From NCBI GenBank assembly GCA_021157815.1, contig JAGGVT010000004.1:1-13220 (forward strand): 13,220 nucleotides of DNA, written 5' to 3'. Below the pieces are notes generated by a model. That model saw only the letters and a list, made by a program, of their open reading frames with translations, did not search any database and was not told the DNA's origin. The stretch comes from a bacterium. Lineage in GTDB: Bacteria; JAJVIF01; JAGGVT01. Positions 2,515 to 10,906 of this stretch are shown here, piece by piece. Made by a program: the position numbers and the translations under genes. How positions within the stretch are numbered: position 1 is the first letter of the stretch; each line of letters begins with the position of its first letter.

Positions 2515-2558
2515 GGTGTCTGACACCTTGATAATGCTAGTGTCAAGATGTTTGACAG
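2515..2558 (+). repeat. REP-like palindromic repeat, copy A (overlaps RAYT 3' end)
   Basis: Begins with the 13-bp palindrome GGTGTCTGACACC (2515-2527) followed by TTGA, a short spacer, TCAAG and a decayed right arm (ATGTTTGACAG). It aligns without gaps to copy C at 3470-3514, with substitutions in the spacer and right arm. The right half contains the RAYT stop codon (2543-2545) and its last residues. Confidence 0.75.
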
Positions 2559-3220
2559 AATACAGGTTTGGGTTGCTGTTGGTTGATGCTCCCAGTGAAA
2601 CCACACAATGAAACTTTTTTCAGGAATCGTTTCCCACTCAAAGGTGCGCCTGTTTTTGTCTGATCTCTAATTTGAGTAAGCTCATTGTCGAGCAAATTCT
2701 CTATCAGGAAATCGCTCCATGCCTTAGGATCAAATTTACGATTCCACCATTTCATATCAAGGATATTAAATGCATCTGCTCCAGTAACATGTGCCGATGC
2801 ACTGGACCATTTGTAATCCACTGGTGACTTGACAAGTCCGGCTCTCACGGGATTCTGCTCGACATATCGAAGTGTGGCAACCAGATGCTTGTTATCCATG
2901 GGGCAGGAGAAGTAACGTTGCTGCCAGATATGTCCTGAATTGCCATAGATATTGTTAGTTATTGCGGAGTACTGGCTCTGCGTGGATTGAAGCACTGCTG
3001 GTATAGTTTTCTTGAGTTTCGGTATTGCTACGAGATGGATATGATTCGACATCAGGCAGTAGCTAAGTATTTTGAGATCATGCTTCACTGAGTATTTCGA
3101 TAGAAGAGAAAGGTAACGCTTTCGGTCATCATCGCAGAGGAACACTAAGCGTTTATTGTTTCCACGTTGAGTCAAATGATGTGGAGCTCCCGGAATAAGA
3201 ATTCGTTTGGGTCTAGGCAT
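2543..3220 (-). CDS. REP-associated tyrosine transposase (RAYT, Y1/IS200-like HUH nuclease)
   Basis: A 225-residue single-strand DNA nuclease of the IS200/IS605-like Y1 transposase family, which cuts and joins hairpin-forming REP sequences. The N-terminus MPRPKRILIPGAPHHLTQRGNN is typical of RAYTs. The HUH metal site is SNHIHLVAIP (His60 and His62), and the candidate nucleophile is Tyr119 in LRYVEQNPVRAGLV (117-130). GHIWQQRYFS (96-105) is another family hallmark. The C-terminal TKTGAPLSGKRFLKKV segment matches RAYTs, and the final 20 or so residues are Gln/Pro-rich and run into repeat copy A. The start ATG at 3218-3220 is preceded by a GAGGT-like ribosome site about 7 nt away. All catalytic residues are present, so it may be active. 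It has probably been acquired horizontally, although base composition is not strikingly different. Confidence 0.92.
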   Translation of the reverse strand: MPRPKRILIPGAPHHLTQRGNNKRLVFLCDDDRKRYLSLLSKYSVKHDLKILSYCLMSNHIHLVAIPKLKKTIPAVLQSTQSQYSAITNNIYGNSGHIWQQRYFSCPMDNKHLVATLRYVEQNPVRAGLVKSPVDYKWSSASAHVTGADAFNILDMKWWNRKFDPKAWSDFLIENLLDNELTQIRDQTKTGAPLSGKRFLKKVSLCGFTGSINQQQPKPVFCQTS

Positions 3221-3469: not shown

Positions 3470-3514
3470 GGTGTCTGACACCTTGACAATGGTGTTATCA
3501 AGGTGTCTGACACC
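3470..3514 (+). repeat. REP-like palindromic repeat, copy C (best preserved)
   Basis: Two identical 13-bp palindromes, GGTGTCTGACACC at 3470-3482 and 3502-3514, flank a spacer whose edges TTGA and TCAA are also complementary. The outer 17 nt form an inverted repeat with a single central mismatch. Each 13-mer is itself palindromic, so the DNA can fold as two small hairpins or one large one, a layout typical of RAYT substrates. Confidence 0.8.
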
Positions 3515-4307: not shown

Positions 4308-4736
4308 TCAGTTATTGTAGTGAAGCAGCCTTGGGTCGATCTTCGATTTAGTCGGTTCTCCAAGGTGTGCAAGGGCATCGACAAGATCAAGGGTTGCCTG
4401 GACAATTCGCTCCGCTCTGGCATGATCAATTTCCTCGGGATGCCCCTCCTGCTCATTTTCCCAGTATTTCTTGATTTTGCTCAGATGATTGGCGTATTTC
4501 TTATCGATGACTCCCTTGTCAATCACCTCTCGGCGGTAATTCGAGGCGACAGTCTGATGGGTTGAAACGGTATGTCCCATCTTCTTCAAAGCTCCGCGTG
4601 CCGCCATGAACATAACATTATACGCATCAACGATAATGTTATCCCAGTCGCCCTCCTTGACCTGATGCTGCATACCACGAGCCTTGATGCGCGCTTTGCG
4701 TATCATGCCATCAGGATCATGCATTCCTTCATGCAT
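4308..4736 (-). CDS. HEPN-domain protein (UPF0332-like), solitary
   Basis: A 142-residue helical protein. The segment DNIIVDAYNVMFMAARGALKKMGHTVSTHQTVA (about residues 32-64) matches the HEPN pattern of an 'AYyAMf-AArAlL' helix followed by a 'TH' loop. The C-terminal half (IDKKYANHLSKIKKYWENEQEG ... ERIVQATLDLVDAL) gives the other two HEPN helices. HEPN proteins are often RNases or nucleotide-modifying toxins paired with an MNT nucleotidyltransferase antitoxin. No MNT gene lies on either side here, and a compact R-x(4-6)-H active motif is not evident; Arg47 and His55 are eight residues apart. I chose ATG at 4734-4736 because AGAGGTG lies just upstream; a TTG at 4754 is a less likely longer start, since it would bury that site. 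The N-terminal Met/His-rich stretch has other possible ATGs. Function unknown: toxin remnant, substrate-binding HEPN or a housekeeping RNase. Confidence 0.7.
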   Translation of the reverse strand: MHEGMHDPDGMIRKARIKARGMQHQVKEGDWDNIIVDAYNVMFMAARGALKKMGHTVSTHQTVASNYRREVIDKGVIDKKYANHLSKIKKYWENEQEGHPEEIDHARAERIVQATLDLVDALAHLGEPTKSKIDPRLLHYNN

Positions 4737-5086
4737 TTCACACCTCTGTTCCAATTGTAATACTATCTAAAACAGGCTTAAAACCTATGAAACATAGAAA
4801 AGCATGCACAAACAATGATGAATCGATGAAAGAAATGAAGTTATTAATCATTTTCATTATATATCATTTAAATGGATTTGGAAAGTTATTTTTCCATCTC
4901 CGGTTATTTATTTAGACGTTGCCCTGGGGGTTTTGGTTTCATTATTATTGAAAAATTAACATGTTAAACCGGACAGTAGTGAAATTCATCCCAAATTAAC
5001 TACTTTGATTAAATTTGTAAAAGAACGGTAAATGCAGTCTGGACGATACTATTTTGATTGTAAATTTCTTTCAGGAGCTATCGCTA
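4737..5086. other. AT-rich divergent intergenic region (350 bp)
   Basis: The spacer between the HEPN gene (-) and the PH-like gene (+) shows no supportable gene. It must hold promoters for both directions, but I see no convincing -35/-10 pair. It contains a perfect 12-bp palindrome at 4956-4967 and a G-rich patch (CCCTGGGGGTTTTGG) near 4922-4936. The ribosome site of the PH-like gene (AGGAG, 5073-5077) lies at its right end. Confidence 0.5.
4956..4967. promoter_or_regulatory. Perfect 12-bp palindrome, possible operator
   Basis: TTAACATGTTAA is a perfect inverted repeat, about 120 bp before the PH-like gene and 220 bp before the HEPN start. It has the form of a dimeric repressor site. No regulator is encoded nearby and no second copy is seen, so it may be chance in AT-rich DNA. 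Confidence 0.25.
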
Positions 5087-5791
5087 GTGAGTGAAACTTC
5101 AAATCAGAAAAAATTCTGTGTTACCAGATGGAAGCAGCTGATCTTTCCCAAGGAATTGATTATTGATGAAAGCAGCGTTCTAACACGGAAGCGGAAATTT
5201 CCGGCGTTCTGGATTATCCAGGAGGAGTCGATACCTCTCAGGAGTGTCGCGTCGGTTCAAATCTACCGTGGATTGTTTTTCAGCTCATTGCTGATAGAGA
5301 ATTCCGGTGGTCCGTATCCAATTCAAATCGAAGGGATTCCAAACAGGCTGGCTTCTGAAATAAGGCGGCTTATCGAGGGCTTCAATCCATCGGATGCAGC
5401 AGAAATTCCCCAAACAGATAAGCCCGATAAGTTTGAGGAATCACTTCCGAAGGTTGAGCCGAAAAAATCAAGACGTCCCATTTTCAATCCGTTCAAGAAC
5501 ATAAAACTTAAAAGAGAAAAGAAATACATGCAGTTCGATGACTTGGAGGATGATTTGTGGGGTGATTTGTCCGCTGGTAGTGAGTTTGATCCTGTGATTG
5601 ATAATGAACTCAGCGAAGACCCGATTCCGGAAGCGGATGTCCTGTACAGGATGCAGGAAGAGGAACAAAGTGAAACGTCTCATCTGCCATCAATTGATGA
5701 GGCGCTTGATGAATACGAAAAAAGAAAATCAGCATCGCCGGGATGGATGGAAGACATTGTAACGCCTCCTGCGCATAGTTCTAAAAAGTAA
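5087..5791 (+). CDS. PH-like domain protein with charged low-complexity tail, function unknown
   Basis: A 234-residue protein I cannot name. Residues about 22-98 look like a bacterial pleckstrin-homology-like domain: alternating beta strands (ELIIDESSVLTRKRKF ... SIPLRSVASVQIYRG ... SSLLIENSGGPYPIQIEGI) followed by a closing amphipathic helix (NRLASEIRRLIEGF). In bPH domains the 'IPL-x-x-V-x-S-V' strand is typical. The remainder is a linker, a basic cluster (126-147, KKSRRPIF ... KLKREKK) and a long acidic, probably disordered stretch (151-215). No signal peptide or membrane segment is seen, so it is likely cytosolic, perhaps membrane- or protein-docking. I prefer GTG at 5087 because AGGAG lies 9 nt upstream; an in-frame TTG at 5054 would put that ribosome site inside the gene. 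It stands alone between a divergent and a convergent operon. Confidence 0.65.
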   Translation: MSETSNQKKFCVTRWKQLIFPKELIIDESSVLTRKRKFPAFWIIQEESIPLRSVASVQIYRGLFFSSLLIENSGGPYPIQIEGIPNRLASEIRRLIEGFNPSDAAEIPQTDKPDKFEESLPKVEPKKSRRPIFNPFKNIKLKREKKYMQFDDLEDDLWGDLSAGSEFDPVIDNELSEDPIPEADVLYRMQEEEQSETSHLPSIDEALDEYEKRKSASPGWMEDIVTPPAHSSKK

Positions 5792-5895: not shown

Positions 5896-8181
5896 CTAAA
5901 TCCCGTCAGCGTAGTCGTCATCAGGAAGCTGCCACGGATCGATGGATATATCCTCACTATCGCGGCCACGGCATCCGCAGTCCTCATCGACATAACTTTG
6001 CCCGGTATCATCCTCATCATTCGACCAGTCAGATGAGAACATGCTGTCCAGGTCGGCATCGGAAATATAACCAAGCCCAATAAGAGTATCAACAAGCTTC
6101 TTATCTTCTTCATCACCCAGCTTGATATATTCATCGAATGGAATCCGTTTGAAATTGCGCTTTCTCTCAAGGGATGACATCATTTCCTCAAGAATACCGA
6201 TTAGTTCATCCCTTTTTTCAGGATATTCATCGACCATGTTGATACACTCACCCGGGTCGTTGCGGATGTCGTAAAGGTGAAATTCATCACAGTTGTAGCG
6301 GAAGAATCTGTCGCCCCTGTTAAGTCCCCACACGAGTTTCCAGTCTCCGACTCTAATCGCTCTTGAATAGACGAAAATTTGGCTAAGGACAGGTTCCTTC
6401 CATGTCGGCACAACCTCTGGATCCAACTCAATCAGTGGCTTGAGCGACCGGCCATACATGAAGCTGTTTCCCTTATGGCGGAAAACGGACGGCATCTTAA
6501 GGCCTGCGTAATCAATCAAAGTAGGCATTAAATCTATGCTTTCGACATTCCAGCCTATTTCCCTAACGCCGTTGGTTGTGTATTTATCATTTATATCTCT
6601 GGCAAGATATCCCATGCTTTCAAGTGTTGTGGTGATGTCATCAGGCTGCCTCCCCCAGACGGAAGGTGGTATGAACAAAACAAACGGAACACGGATTTCA
6701 TCATCGTTCAGAAAATAGTTATGTCCAAAATAACCGCGCTCGTATAATCCTTCTCCGTGGTCTCCAATTAATGCGATTATTGTGTTATCCAGAATATCGA
6801 GTTCCTTTAGTTGAGCCATGACATCGCCGAATGCCTCATCGACATGTTTTATTTCCTCGCGGTAGAGATTACGAATGTAGGAAACATCATCATCTGTGAG
6901 CTCCTCGCTGCTTATTTTCTCGTTTATAAAGTAGCGGCTTCCGAAAAGGCAGGTGAGAGATTTAACGCTGGCGGACATCAAGCTGGTCTCGACATTGCCC
7001 ATCTGCTGCGCTCTTGGAATATCAGCCATGGATGGCGGGAGATAGGGGGCATGAAGATCAAAATAATGCAGCCACGCGAACCATCTGCGCCCCTGGTTTT
7101 TTTTCATCCATCGTAGGAAGTGGGAATTTGTCAGTTTCGCGTTGGAATTAATAGGCATTTCAGGTTGCGCAATCTCATATCCGCAAACCGTTTCCAGAAA
7201 TCGAACCGGCGCGATATAACTGTATATTGTGGTTTGTAAATCATCGGATATCTGTCGATTTGCGAAATAATCGAATCCCTGGTTGAAATTATTCAGGGAT
7301 GTTACACAAAACGCGCTGGGGAAACCGCCTGTTACATATCCCTTGTTCTTAAAATATTCGGAGATTGTTTTAACTCTGAAAGGCAGTTTGGATTCATTCG
7401 AGTATGCCTTGTGATACTGCGGATACGCGCCGGTGAAAATTGACCCGTGCGATGGCGTTGTAAGGGGCGTGGACACATAAGCGTTTGTAAACAAAACCGA
7501 TTCATCAACAAATTGCGCAATCCTAGGAGCGACAAGGTCGGGGGAGCCGTACCCCGGAAAGTAATTTATATTTGCCGTATCGAGTGTTATCAGCAGGATA
7601 TTCGGTTTGTCTTTCAGGTGGCGTTTCGCTGATGTTACTCGCGATGAACTGAACGCAATCGACAGAAGGAACAATCCGATGCCGATTAACAGTAAATTTC
7701 TTAATTTAAACGGGGCAACCACTCGTTCTTTTGAACGTTTGGCAACAGGATAGAAAATCGCGCCCGTTATCACAAAACTCAGGATTAATCCAATTATGAT
7801 ATACAGCCAAGCAGCGTTATCGAGTCCTGACGATGATTTAAACGCGAGCGCGACCCGGTTCGTTATCAGAATGAACACTACAATCGCGATATTCATTGCG
7901 AAATTCCAGTTGGCGAATCCGAATCCGAATCCAATTTTCTTTGTGCTTTTCAGGATGATTTGATAGAACGGATATGTCAGCAGGCCGACTATGAATCCAA
8001 GTATCGCAAGCGGAATGTAAATCAACAGCGGCATGATATAAGCGAGCAGGCTGAGTTTATGCAGTCCGAAATACCAGTACCACTTGTAGAACGGCAGTTC
8101 AACTATATATAGGAACAGCCATGGAACCAAAATGAATAAAAGCCCCTTGATTATTTTCATTGTTTTCTGAGGATCTTTCAT
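5896..8181 (-). CDS. Membrane-anchored sulfatase/alkaline-phosphatase-superfamily protein with Thr at the nucleophile position
   Basis: A 761-residue protein. About five or six hydrophobic segments fill residues 10-30, 43-76, 94-114, 122-146 and 160-178. The rest is a large sulfatase-type domain, probably periplasmic. Visible motifs are NILLITLD (194-201, first metal Asp), LTTPSHGSIFTG (240-251) at the position of the sulfatase C/S-x-P-S-R signature, LHYFDLHAPY (371-380), and IGDHGEGLYERGYFGHN (472-488) with metal ligands Asp474 and His475. Thr241 replaces the Cys/Ser needed for formylglycine, His245 replaces Arg, and the usual second Asp after LD is Thr202. Thr is the nucleophile in related phosphoethanolamine and LTA-type transferases, so phospho-transfer or hydrolysis is as likely as desulfation. 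The C-terminal 60 residues are strongly acidic with a Cys-Gly-Cys. The start ATG overlaps the upstream stop as ATGA and has an AGGGAG ribosome site. Confidence 0.85.
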   Translation of the reverse strand: MKDPQKTMKIIKGLLFILVPWLFLYIVELPFYKWYWYFGLHKLSLLAYIMPLLIYIPLAILGFIVGLLTYPFYQIILKSTKKIGFGFGFANWNFAMNIAIVVFILITNRVALAFKSSSGLDNAAWLYIIIGLILSFVITGAIFYPVAKRSKERVVAPFKLRNLLLIGIGLFLLSIAFSSSRVTSAKRHLKDKPNILLITLDTANINYFPGYGSPDLVAPRIAQFVDESVLFTNAYVSTPLTTPSHGSIFTGAYPQYHKAYSNESKLPFRVKTISEYFKNKGYVTGGFPSAFCVTSLNNFNQGFDYFANRQISDDLQTTIYSYIAPVRFLETVCGYEIAQPEMPINSNAKLTNSHFLRWMKKNQGRRWFAWLHYFDLHAPYLPPSMADIPRAQQMGNVETSLMSASVKSLTCLFGSRYFINEKISSEELTDDDVSYIRNLYREEIKHVDEAFGDVMAQLKELDILDNTIIALIGDHGEGLYERGYFGHNYFLNDDEIRVPFVLFIPPSVWGRQPDDITTTLESMGYLARDINDKYTTNGVREIGWNVESIDLMPTLIDYAGLKMPSVFRHKGNSFMYGRSLKPLIELDPEVVPTWKEPVLSQIFVYSRAIRVGDWKLVWGLNRGDRFFRYNCDEFHLYDIRNDPGECINMVDEYPEKRDELIGILEEMMSSLERKRNFKRIPFDEYIKLGDEEDKKLVDTLIGLGYISDADLDSMFSSDWSNDEDDTGQSYVDEDCGCRGRDSEDISIDPWQLPDDDYADGI

Positions 8182-10568
8182 TTCGATTCTCCCTGAAGGT
8201 TACGGATTATTCCCTCAACGTTTCTCGCCTGAGCGATATTCGGATTTATCTGAAGCACTCTTTTAAAATGAAACAGAGCCTCCTCGGGTTGATTCAGGTT
8301 GTTCATGTATATCAATCCAAGGTTGTAGTGAGTGTTAATGTGGTCAGGATTCAATTTAAGCACATCATTGAACATTTTAACAGAATTTTTAAAATCACCC
8401 TGCATTGATAATACGTTCGCGAGATTAACCAACGCTTGAAGGTAATTGGGGCGGAAGTAAAGCGCACTCTTGTATGCTTTCCCCGCGGAGTCAAGGTCGT
8501 TTAGCTTCACGTACGCGTTGCCGAGATTGTAGTACGCAAGGTCGGGGAATCTTGATATCTGTGTCGCCTCGGTGAATATCTCTATTCCCTTTTTAATATT
8601 CCCTTCTTCGATTTCAAGTATTCCCAGGTTATTCAAAGCCTCGTAGTAATTTGCCTTTAGTTCAATCGCTTTTTCATAATGCTCACGCGCTTTTTCAATT
8701 TGATTGAAAGCCTTGTATGTTACCCCGATATTAAATTGCAAAACCGCGTCTTCGGAATCAATCAGTTCAGCCTTGTGGAATGTTTCCAAAGCTCTTGAGT
8801 AATCGCCCTGAATCAGATAGAGATGTCCCAGATTCACAAGGGCATAGACACTCTTTTTATCAATCTTAAGCGCATCCTGATAGAGCGATTCAGCCTCAGA
8901 GAACATAGCAAGCGCTTGAGCCTGCAGCCTGTCAGTTTCCTCTCTGGTCTTGATTTGATCGGAGTTTTTAAGAATATATTCCGCTTTTTGCTCCAGAAGG
9001 AATCCGAGATTAACTTTTGGCCGCGTTTTGGATGGCGACTTCGCGACAACGTCCTTCCAGAATACAAGTTCATCAGCCCAGACAGCGTTGCGGTCAATTG
9101 TCCATGAAATGCATACAACAGTTGTGACAATAAGAATAATCGAGATTATCCCACTGAACGCTATTGACGGTTTTACGGTTTTCATGTCCCTGGTCAGATA
9201 TCTGAACAGTGCGAATATGCTGTACACTAAAAGAAGAATCGCGCCCCATCCGGGAAGGTAAAACCTGTGTTCATACACCATTTCAAGCCCGATGAACGAT
9301 GACTCAATAATCAGCTGCCCGAAATACCACAGAATGAGAAACGGAATAAACCTGTCCTTTTTTAGATACTTAATTGATGTGATTACTGCTGCAAACCATG
9401 CGATTATCGCGAAGTATGTTGAAACCGGTGATATTACAGATGTCGATTTAACAATTTCAACATCCAGATTCAATCTCGATGGGTGAGCGTATATCATCAG
9501 TAGAAGATAATTCCATACTACTCTGAACTGTGTGAGAACTCTCTCCCAGACTGTGAAATCACGCTCCTCGTATGTAACAAGGATTTTATCCCACAGCACC
9601 GGACTGATGAGAACAAGGAATCCGGCGACAAATCCCCATCCGACAATCGAGCGTTTTTTGAATGATTCATCGTTGCCGCTGATAAATAAATAATCGTAGA
9701 ACCAGCAGAAAAAGGGAAGCGTGATCGTGTTTTCCTTTGTGGTGAGTGCGATAAGCCCTGCTGGAATCGCCAGAAGCAGATTTATATCGCCATCCTGGCG
9801 TTTGATTAATCCTTTTTTATTCAGGAGCATGATGATCGGAACACCAATTACAAGCACAATCGCGAAACACAAAAGCGCGTACTGCCCATCCGACGGCTGA
9901 TTGAAAACATTCCGCCACACATAAAACAGCGCGTACCAGATAAAGCCGATCCAGACCAGAAGCGGAAAATTTCCTAAAAACGGGATGGTTTTCTTTTTCT
10001 CGGATGCCCGATGCTTAATGTAAAGATAGAGAGCCAGCAGATACCAGAAAGCTGCAGCGCCCGCCATGCGTTGGACAATATATGTAACAGTCTGCGTCTG
10101 AATCGGATTGAGCGCGAAAAACACAGCAGTCGTAAATGCCAGCCAGAATCTTGTGCTCTCCGCCCAATCACCGCGAGCGCGTTTCAGAAGATCGAAACTC
10201 AGAAGGAAAATTAAATACGATGTCAGAACGTGCAGAATGATGTTTACAATATGCCATAGCATGGGGTCGAGTCCGCTGCCGAATATCGCATTGGCAAAAT
10301 AATAATTCAGCGCGAATCCAAGATATGATGACTGCCTTAGAACTCCACTGAGCTGTCCATTAAGTGTCCCCGCCAGTTCCGATGGGCTTAAATCGACAAT
10401 CTGAATCCATGAATTGTCAACTATGTTGGTTTTATCATCGAAGTGCCACGGCACATAAAGCGAACTGAAGTACGCAATGCTAATCAGTATTGCAAGCAGA
10501 ACGAAAACAAGGAGCGGACCGTATGGCGGTTTATGTATTTGCTGTTTTTCCAATGTTAGTGTCCGCAT
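8178..10568 (-). CDS. GT-C-like multi-pass membrane protein with C-terminal TPR array (TMTC-like)
   Basis: About 796 residues from ATG at 10568; a GTG at 10580 would add four, and neither has a clear ribosome site. Residue numbers here follow the longer form. The N-terminal 490 residues contain about ten or more membrane segments. WHFDDKTNIVDN (45-56) carries the Asp-Asp pair in the first outer loop, as in GT-C glycosyltransferases. FALNPIQTQTVTYIVQR (155-171) and VYEHRFYLPGWG (435-446) resemble conserved loops of eukaryotic TMTC O-mannosyltransferases and their bacterial relatives. Residues about 575-795 form six or seven TPR units (for example ALVNLGHLYLIQGDYSRALETF, then YYNLGNAYVKLNDLDSAGKAY), likely outside the membrane and binding a protein partner or acceptor. 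The family uses a lipid-linked sugar donor. Translation couples to the sulfatase-like gene via ATGA. Donor and acceptor are unknown, and the GT assignment rests on motif resemblance. Confidence 0.8.
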   Translation of the reverse strand: MRTLTLEKQQIHKPPYGPLLVFVLLAILISIAYFSSLYVPWHFDDKTNIVDNSWIQIVDLSPSELAGTLNGQLSGVLRQSSYLGFALNYYFANAIFGSGLDPMLWHIVNIILHVLTSYLIFLLSFDLLKRARGDWAESTRFWLAFTTAVFFALNPIQTQTVTYIVQRMAGAAAFWYLLALYLYIKHRASEKKKTIPFLGNFPLLVWIGFIWYALFYVWRNVFNQPSDGQYALLCFAIVLVIGVPIIMLLNKKGLIKRQDGDINLLLAIPAGLIALTTKENTITLPFFCWFYDYLFISGNDESFKKRSIVGWGFVAGFLVLISPVLWDKILVTYEERDFTVWERVLTQFRVVWNYLLLMIYAHPSRLNLDVEIVKSTSVISPVSTYFAIIAWFAAVITSIKYLKKDRFIPFLILWYFGQLIIESSFIGLEMVYEHRFYLPGWGAILLLVYSIFALFRYLTRDMKTVKPSIAFSGIISIILIVTTVVCISWTIDRNAVWADELVFWKDVVAKSPSKTRPKVNLGFLLEQKAEYILKNSDQIKTREETDRLQAQALAMFSEAESLYQDALKIDKKSVYALVNLGHLYLIQGDYSRALETFHKAELIDSEDAVLQFNIGVTYKAFNQIEKAREHYEKAIELKANYYEALNNLGILEIEEGNIKKGIEIFTEATQISRFPDLAYYNLGNAYVKLNDLDSAGKAYKSALYFRPNYLQALVNLANVLSMQGDFKNSVKMFNDVLKLNPDHINTHYNLGLIYMNNLNQPEEALFHFKRVLQINPNIAQARNVEGIIRNLQGESK

Positions 10569-10618
10569 GAATGATAGCACACAACAAACAGACTTAATCC
10601 CAAATTATTTATACTCGT

Positions 10619-10865
10619 AGCGCTGGCGTCCCGGGGCTGTTGAAAAAGCTTATTTCTACCGTAACCCGGTCATACCGTCCCGAATAAAATCAACAATTAT
10701 CTATTAAGTGAATCAGGCATGCCGGGGTTTCGCATATCTACCCACCTCCCCGGCATGCCTGATTTACATTATATAAAATTGTCAACTGTGCACGGGACGG
10801 CATGACCGGGTTAAGGTTCATCGTTTTTTATCTGCCTTTTTCAACAGCCCCGAGACGCCAGCGCT
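10619..10865. repeat. 247-bp fold-back element (long imperfect palindrome, MITE-like)
   Basis: The outer arms 10619-10648 and 10836-10865 are inverted copies with 29 of 30 matches. Middle arms 10662-10682 and 10793-10813 match 20 of 21, and inner arms 10711-10727 and 10748-10764 match 17 of 17 around a 20-nt loop. The AT-rich stretches between the inner and middle arms also partly pair (ACAATT core). The outer ends contain GGGGCTGTTGAAAAAG, the kind of terminal inverted repeat seen on non-autonomous elements. It has no coding capacity and fills the gap between the divergent GT-C operon and ffh. I saw no clear target-site duplication. Alternatives are a bidirectional terminator or a structured leader RNA. 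Confidence 0.85.
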
Positions 10866-10906
10866 GCGAATAATCACATTTAAGGATTTTAATTCAATCA
10901 TTCTGT

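Follow-up and report, generated by a model that had tools for sequence, protein, structure and literature searches.

The window, the whole stretch of 13,220 nucleotides that was analysed, belongs to a 3.2-Mb draft genome from a small bacterial phylum. It carries a gene for a membrane GT-C protein with a tetratricopeptide (TPR) array, followed by a gene for a membrane sulfatase-like protein of the alkaline-phosphatase superfamily (Table 1). Both open reading frames lie exactly where the original prediction had placed its coupled genes (5896-10580), with the ATGA common to both. The GT-C/TPR gene has two candidate starts, GTG at 10580 or ATG at 10568. The operon-like pair stands alone: its upstream neighbour, the ffh-like gene, is divergent, and the downstream gene (5054-5791) is convergent. 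No pilin gene was found beside the operon within the window, and no Rfam family matched within it. A 290-bp palindromic repeat (10596-10888) lies in the gap that separates the GT-C gene from the ffh-like one. Related copies occur at ~40 genomic sites or more (85 matches, both strands counted), and the repeat may affect the promoter region of the GT-C/TPR operon.

Elsewhere in the window, GGTGTCTGACACC palindromes at 2515-2527, 3470-3482 and 3502-3514 flank a Y1-type transposase gene (2543-3220), an arrangement like that of RAYT with REP elements. A MobA-like nucleotidyltransferase gene and then an APH-family kinase gene occupy 695-2501, a pair that we take to resemble MurU/AmgK sugar recycling. 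A HEPN-domain protein (PF05168, E 1.8e-6) is encoded at 4308-4754.

Table 1. Coordinates of the gene pair and of its conserved residues in the window
Feature	Position	Strand	Length	Remarks
GT-C/TPR gene	8178..10580	-	800 aa	membrane GT-C half ~1-540, TPR array ~556-797
Asp48-Asp49, first extracytoplasmic loop	10434..10439	-		conserved 72/73 and 71/73
Lys282-Glu283 motif	9732..9737	-		K 76/76, E 63/76
EHRFYLP segment, residues 437-443	9252..9272	-		E437 60/73, Y441 72/73
ATGA overlap	8178..8181	-		GT-C/TPR stop and sulfatase-like start
Membrane sulfatase-like gene (alkaline-phosphatase superfamily)	5896..8181	-	761 aa	Thr at nucleophile position (T241)
Thr241, nucleophile position	7459..7461	-		aligned with choline sulfatase Cys; Thr in 56/60 relatives
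Asp474-His475, probable metal ligands	6757..6762	-		conserved 59/61 and 60/61

Fold of the GT-C/TPR protein and comparison with TMTC enzymes

The membrane half of the GT-C/TPR protein gave no Pfam match up to E 0.1, including DUF1736 (PF08409, a segment of TMTC proteins), PMT and PMT_2, and no solved structure was found by sequence with a profile of the GT-C half. We modelled residues 1-560 with AlphaFold2 from 82 sequences (pLDDT 86, pTM 0.86). Structure prediction and structural search had been proposed as a check on the GT-C fold, and the protein passed it, because structure alignment with VIA-align 2 ranked Stt3 of the yeast oligosaccharyltransferase (Z 21.4), Pmt1-Pmt2 (19.1), ALG12 (17.3) and ArnT (16.5). 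Among the top matches listed, all were GT-C enzymes or their kin, at Z ~10-21 over residues 11-528. Foldseek alone gave a weak ranking (best E 8.9e-4). The model thus confirmed a GT-C fold in the N-terminal half. PMT and Stt3-type oligosaccharyltransferases share this fold with the window protein at Z 19-21, but identity to them is only ~11%, the PMT and PMT_2 models do not match its sequence, and its TPRs stand where PMT and Stt3 have MIR or Stt3 C-terminal domains. Rank among GT-C folds is no proof of function, although the protein-modifying Stt3 and PMT match best.

The Asp-Asp loop, the EHRFYLP segment and the TPR array that had been read from the sequence were all recovered, the last as about seven repeats from about residue 556 (TPR_1 E 3e-37). 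Across 73-76 diverse family members, most retain ten residues (D48, D49, R82, H110, R171, K282, E283, Y358, E437 and Y441), and the window protein carries all of them. TMTC1-4, the animal protein O-mannosyltransferases, have the same two-part layout of a GT-C membrane half and then a TPR array, and their seven motifs (M1-M7) were used for comparison (PMC7801869). M1 (DD), M4 (KE(T/Q)xxT) and M7 (ERxxY) are found as D48 D49, K282 E283 N284 T287 and E437 H438 Y441, with N284 and H438 as variants. M2 and M3 are present in part only: Arg82 and Arg171 are kept, but no P follows R82, and the D of RxD in M3 is missing (A173). M6 (PxxP) is absent, residues 424-433 reading IIESSFIGLE, and for M5 (DW, in the loop before TM8), where the alignment is loose, the window protein has D373 in LNLDVE and no W. 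Relative to TMTC, the model also adds some low-confidence helices around residues 200-255. The proposed likeness to TMTC enzymes thus holds for the layout and part of the motifs; it does not extend to a DUF1736 or PMT Pfam match, and two motifs are lost. Because of the changes after R82, at 173 and in PxxP, the window protein might differ in function.

Genomic company of the GT-C/TPR family

Homologues were collected with a GT-C profile limited to residues 1-470, since an earlier profile had drifted into the TPRs. The family is present in 58 of 385 sampled genomes and at 481 confirmed places in a species-level genome collection. We surveyed 80 loci of this collection, picked by one peptide pattern and mostly from Desulfobacterota, so that related loci are not independent. 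In 35 of these loci, a pilin signature scan placed a pilin gene no more than 300 bp from a GT-C/TPR gene, compared with a mean of 5.6 and a maximum of 12 when the same pilins were placed randomly in their loci (2000 trials). The pilin was upstream on the same strand in 29 pairs, and most resembled major pilins of type IVa. In a more diverse set, 3 of 60 loci had an adjacent pilin. Of 85 further immediate neighbours scanned with Pfam, 17 carry VKOR, almost always together with a DsbA-like domain, and GT2 and PMT_2 come next; in ~16 loci the pilin, GT-C/TPR and VKOR-DsbA genes are all co-directional. In the family tree, the window protein belongs to a supported part of 84 rows, among which are 34 of the 36 pilin-labelled ones; the label is clustered, yet many changes are needed to account for it. 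Two or more GT-C/TPR genes lie in the surveyed stretch in 25 of the 80 loci (e.g. L178, L180, L184, L223, L241).

Because close relatives form cassettes with major pilin and VKOR-DsbA genes, type IV pilins would be the best acceptor candidates. Pilin accessory genes sit directly downstream of the major pilin gene, and relatives of the window gene do likewise, as TfpO and TfpW do in Pseudomonas aeruginosa (PMC11841053). The likeness is one of gene position: unlike TfpO and TfpW, the GT-C/TPR family has TPRs and often VKOR-DsbA next, and the window copy is without an adjoining pilin. In cable bacteria (Ca. Electrothrix), the pilA clusters contain sugar enzymes and genes for TPR proteins, which are read there as protein-binding (PMC10580974). 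Our search of the open-licence literature turned up no description of a pilin-linked GT-C/TPR family.

Conserved co-occurrence of the two window genes was also expected, and this expectation largely failed. No sulfatase-like pairing was seen in the 80 species-collection loci, over up to 10 kb per side, which rules out pairing as a general feature of the family. When a sulfatase-like gene within 150 bp of the GT-C/TPR gene was scored in 60 diverse loci, two paired (L054, L081); with 0/80 and 2/60 loci, pairing is rare. Nevertheless, the pair recurs in at least three other lineages (examples are L054, L081, L141, L303 and L307). At L141 (G190:C9), the GT-C/TPR gene is followed by a membrane sulfatase-like gene across a 4-base overlap (9377-9380). 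L303 (G385:C37), from another genus of G190's family, has the same order, a 4-base overlap (6861-6864) and a partner 67% identical, and L307 (G190:C5) has the reversed order, again with a 4-base overlap. At L054 (G207:C40), where a 1-bp gap separates the paired genes, two pilin-like open reading frames precede the GT-C/TPR gene, so that this locus joins both threads. In a quick tree with long branches, the window protein and its GT-C counterparts at L054, L141 and L081 form no single group; this scatter suggests that the pairing arose more than once. The recurrence of co-directional pairs in unrelated lineages, some with a 4-base overlap, argues for a functional link of the two enzymes. The proposed two-enzyme module therefore gains from these recurring pairs and loses from their overall rarity. 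Another link between both modules is a 951-aa protein at L149 (5335-8190) that joins a sulfatase-like domain to TPRs, and L157 (1795-4956; G002, of the window's class) encodes a fusion of a membrane sulfatase-like protein with a radical SAM domain.

The G190 and G385 pairs belong to a glycan locus that also encodes a GT2, a GDSL hydrolase and a membrane protein weakly similar to GT87, and a further G190 pair has a sulfotransferase gene nearby. Such company would fit a GT-C/TPR enzyme that modifies an envelope polysaccharide or lipid-linked glycan, with the partner trimming or decorating that glycan and the TPRs holding other enzymes of the pathway. The GT-C model also matches AftB, EmbB and PimE, which act on glycans or lipids, at lower Z. 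However, this arrangement leaves the pilin and VKOR-DsbA cassettes of the relatives unexplained, and the top structural matches modify proteins, although rank by itself does not establish function; we consider it unlikely.

In three other genomes of the window's class we found no such GT-C/TPR gene, yet membrane sulfatase-like genes are present, in tandem in G001 and G003, which indicates that the partner can work alone. The tandem in G001 consists of full-length relatives with 33% and 29% identity to the partner. Together with the rarity of pairing, this would agree with one operon whose products have separate targets in general envelope upkeep, one being a protein glycosyltransferase and the other a phospholipid or lipid-A phospho-form transferase. 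We judge this improbable, since tight pairs occur in separate lineages, with the overlaps in G190:C9 and G385:C37 and the minimal gap in G207:C40. Action of both enzymes on a common product, with an exported protein as acceptor, remains our preferred reading.

Active site of the sulfatase-like partner

The partner was predicted to carry a metallo-enzyme domain behind its own membrane bundle. Indeed, PF00884 covers residues 193-560 (E 6.4e-39), with an SGSH_C domain too, and is preceded by several N-terminal hydrophobic helices: seven partly overlapping hydropathy segments, and five long helices in a low-confidence model (pLDDT 48, with only three viral relatives in the alignment). Viral contigs held only four weak sulfatase-like relatives. 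The best named models were choline sulfatase and arylsulfatase, with scores far under their cut-offs; YejM (27.5 of 825 bits) and MCR-3 (21.3 of 1225 bits) were likewise under threshold.

Alignment to choline sulfatase (PDB 6fny) places Thr241 at the Cys nucleophile, His245 at the sulfatase Arg and His487 at a Lys; a second choline sulfatase structure, 7pth, has Ser at the nucleophile site. The formylglycine (S1) sulfatases share the PF00884 domain with the partner, but in place of their C/S-x-P-x-R the partner has T241-T-P-S-H245. Besides the residues in Table 1, Asp201 (59/60), His377 (57/58) and His487 (57/60) are kept among ~60 relatives. N-terminal membrane helices, Thr at the nucleophile position and the metal-ligand pattern are common to the partner and to metalloenzymes of the EptA, MCR, PptA, LtaS and YejM type. 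EptA binds zinc through Glu240, Thr280, Asp452 and His453 and has a second site with His383 and His465 (PMC7576196, PMC10525099); the spacing equals that of the partner, 40 residues (240-280 versus 201-241) and 12 residues (453-465 versus 475-487). The first metal ligand differs, being Asp in the partner and Glu in EptA, and the closest sequence similarity of the partner is to S1-type sulfatases.

Given the Thr at the nucleophile position, the His in place of the sulfatase Arg and the EptA-like ligands and spacing, phosphate-type chemistry via a Thr intermediate appears likelier than sulfate removal. The earlier view of an enzyme acting on phosphate or sulfate thus survives for the alkaline-phosphatase superfamily and leans to its phosphate side, since the active site favours phosphate chemistry. 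That the partner is a true sulfatase taking sulfate off a glycan, as its domains and best named models might imply, is very improbable, because it has no Cys or Ser for formylglycine, lacks the sulfatase Arg and the choline sulfatase Lys, and has Thr at the nucleophile in nearly all relatives. This suggests that many membrane 'sulfatases' of the partner's type carry Thr and do phosphate chemistry.

Proposed function of the gene pair

No second GT-C protein of the window kind was found in the window's own genome, where the other matches were to TPRs only; one other sulfatase-like protein is present, weakly similar to the partner. The genome has 29 pilin-like matches, and contig C80 (L314, L315; G000) bears a type IV pilus cluster that comprises PilM, a 1507-aa secretin and ~eleven pilin-like genes. 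Adjoining this cluster is a GT2 that, among solved structures, matches dolichol-phosphate-mannose synthase best (PDB 5mlz, E 3.6e-35). With this Dpm1-like GT2 and the pilin genes, a likely donor-making enzyme and likely acceptors are encoded in the genome, on another contig.

We tentatively propose, at a little short of an even chance, that the GT-C/TPR protein belongs to a largely pilin-associated family and acts as a lipid-linked-sugar:protein O-glycosyltransferase, made together with a Thr-type phospho-form transferase or hydrolase. Both enzymes would sit in the inner membrane with their active sites outside the cytoplasm. The Dpm1-like enzyme would make the polyprenyl phosphate sugar donor. 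From this donor the GT-C enzyme would transfer a single sugar, probably mannose or another hexose, onto Ser/Thr of an exported protein that the TPR array holds. The partner may be a metal-dependent phospho-form transferase or phosphodiesterase with a Thr nucleophile, acting on the same glycan or protein; it would add or remove a phospho-group on the GT-C product, much as PptA acts on Neisseria pilin. That pilin carries both glycans and phospho-forms, its phosphoethanolamine being set by PptA (PMC4569582, PMC10525099).

More broadly, bacterial GT-C/TPR proteins may be widespread, unrecognised O-glycosyltransferases of pilins or pilin-like proteins, encoded in VKOR-DsbA cassettes, some with a Thr phospho-form transferase, and forming a counterpart to the animal TMTC pathway; we regard this generalisation as possible but somewhat doubtful. 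TMTC-like proteins are present in bacteria, and we know of no function described for them. Gene neighbourhood singles out type IV pilins as a concrete target, and this can be tested in cultured hosts such as Desulfosarcina widdelii, Desulfoprunum benzoelyticum and Desulfobulbus alkaliphilus. If true, this would add a new family for pilin glycosylation and provide a simple bacterial model of protein substrate choice by TPR-bearing GT-C enzymes.
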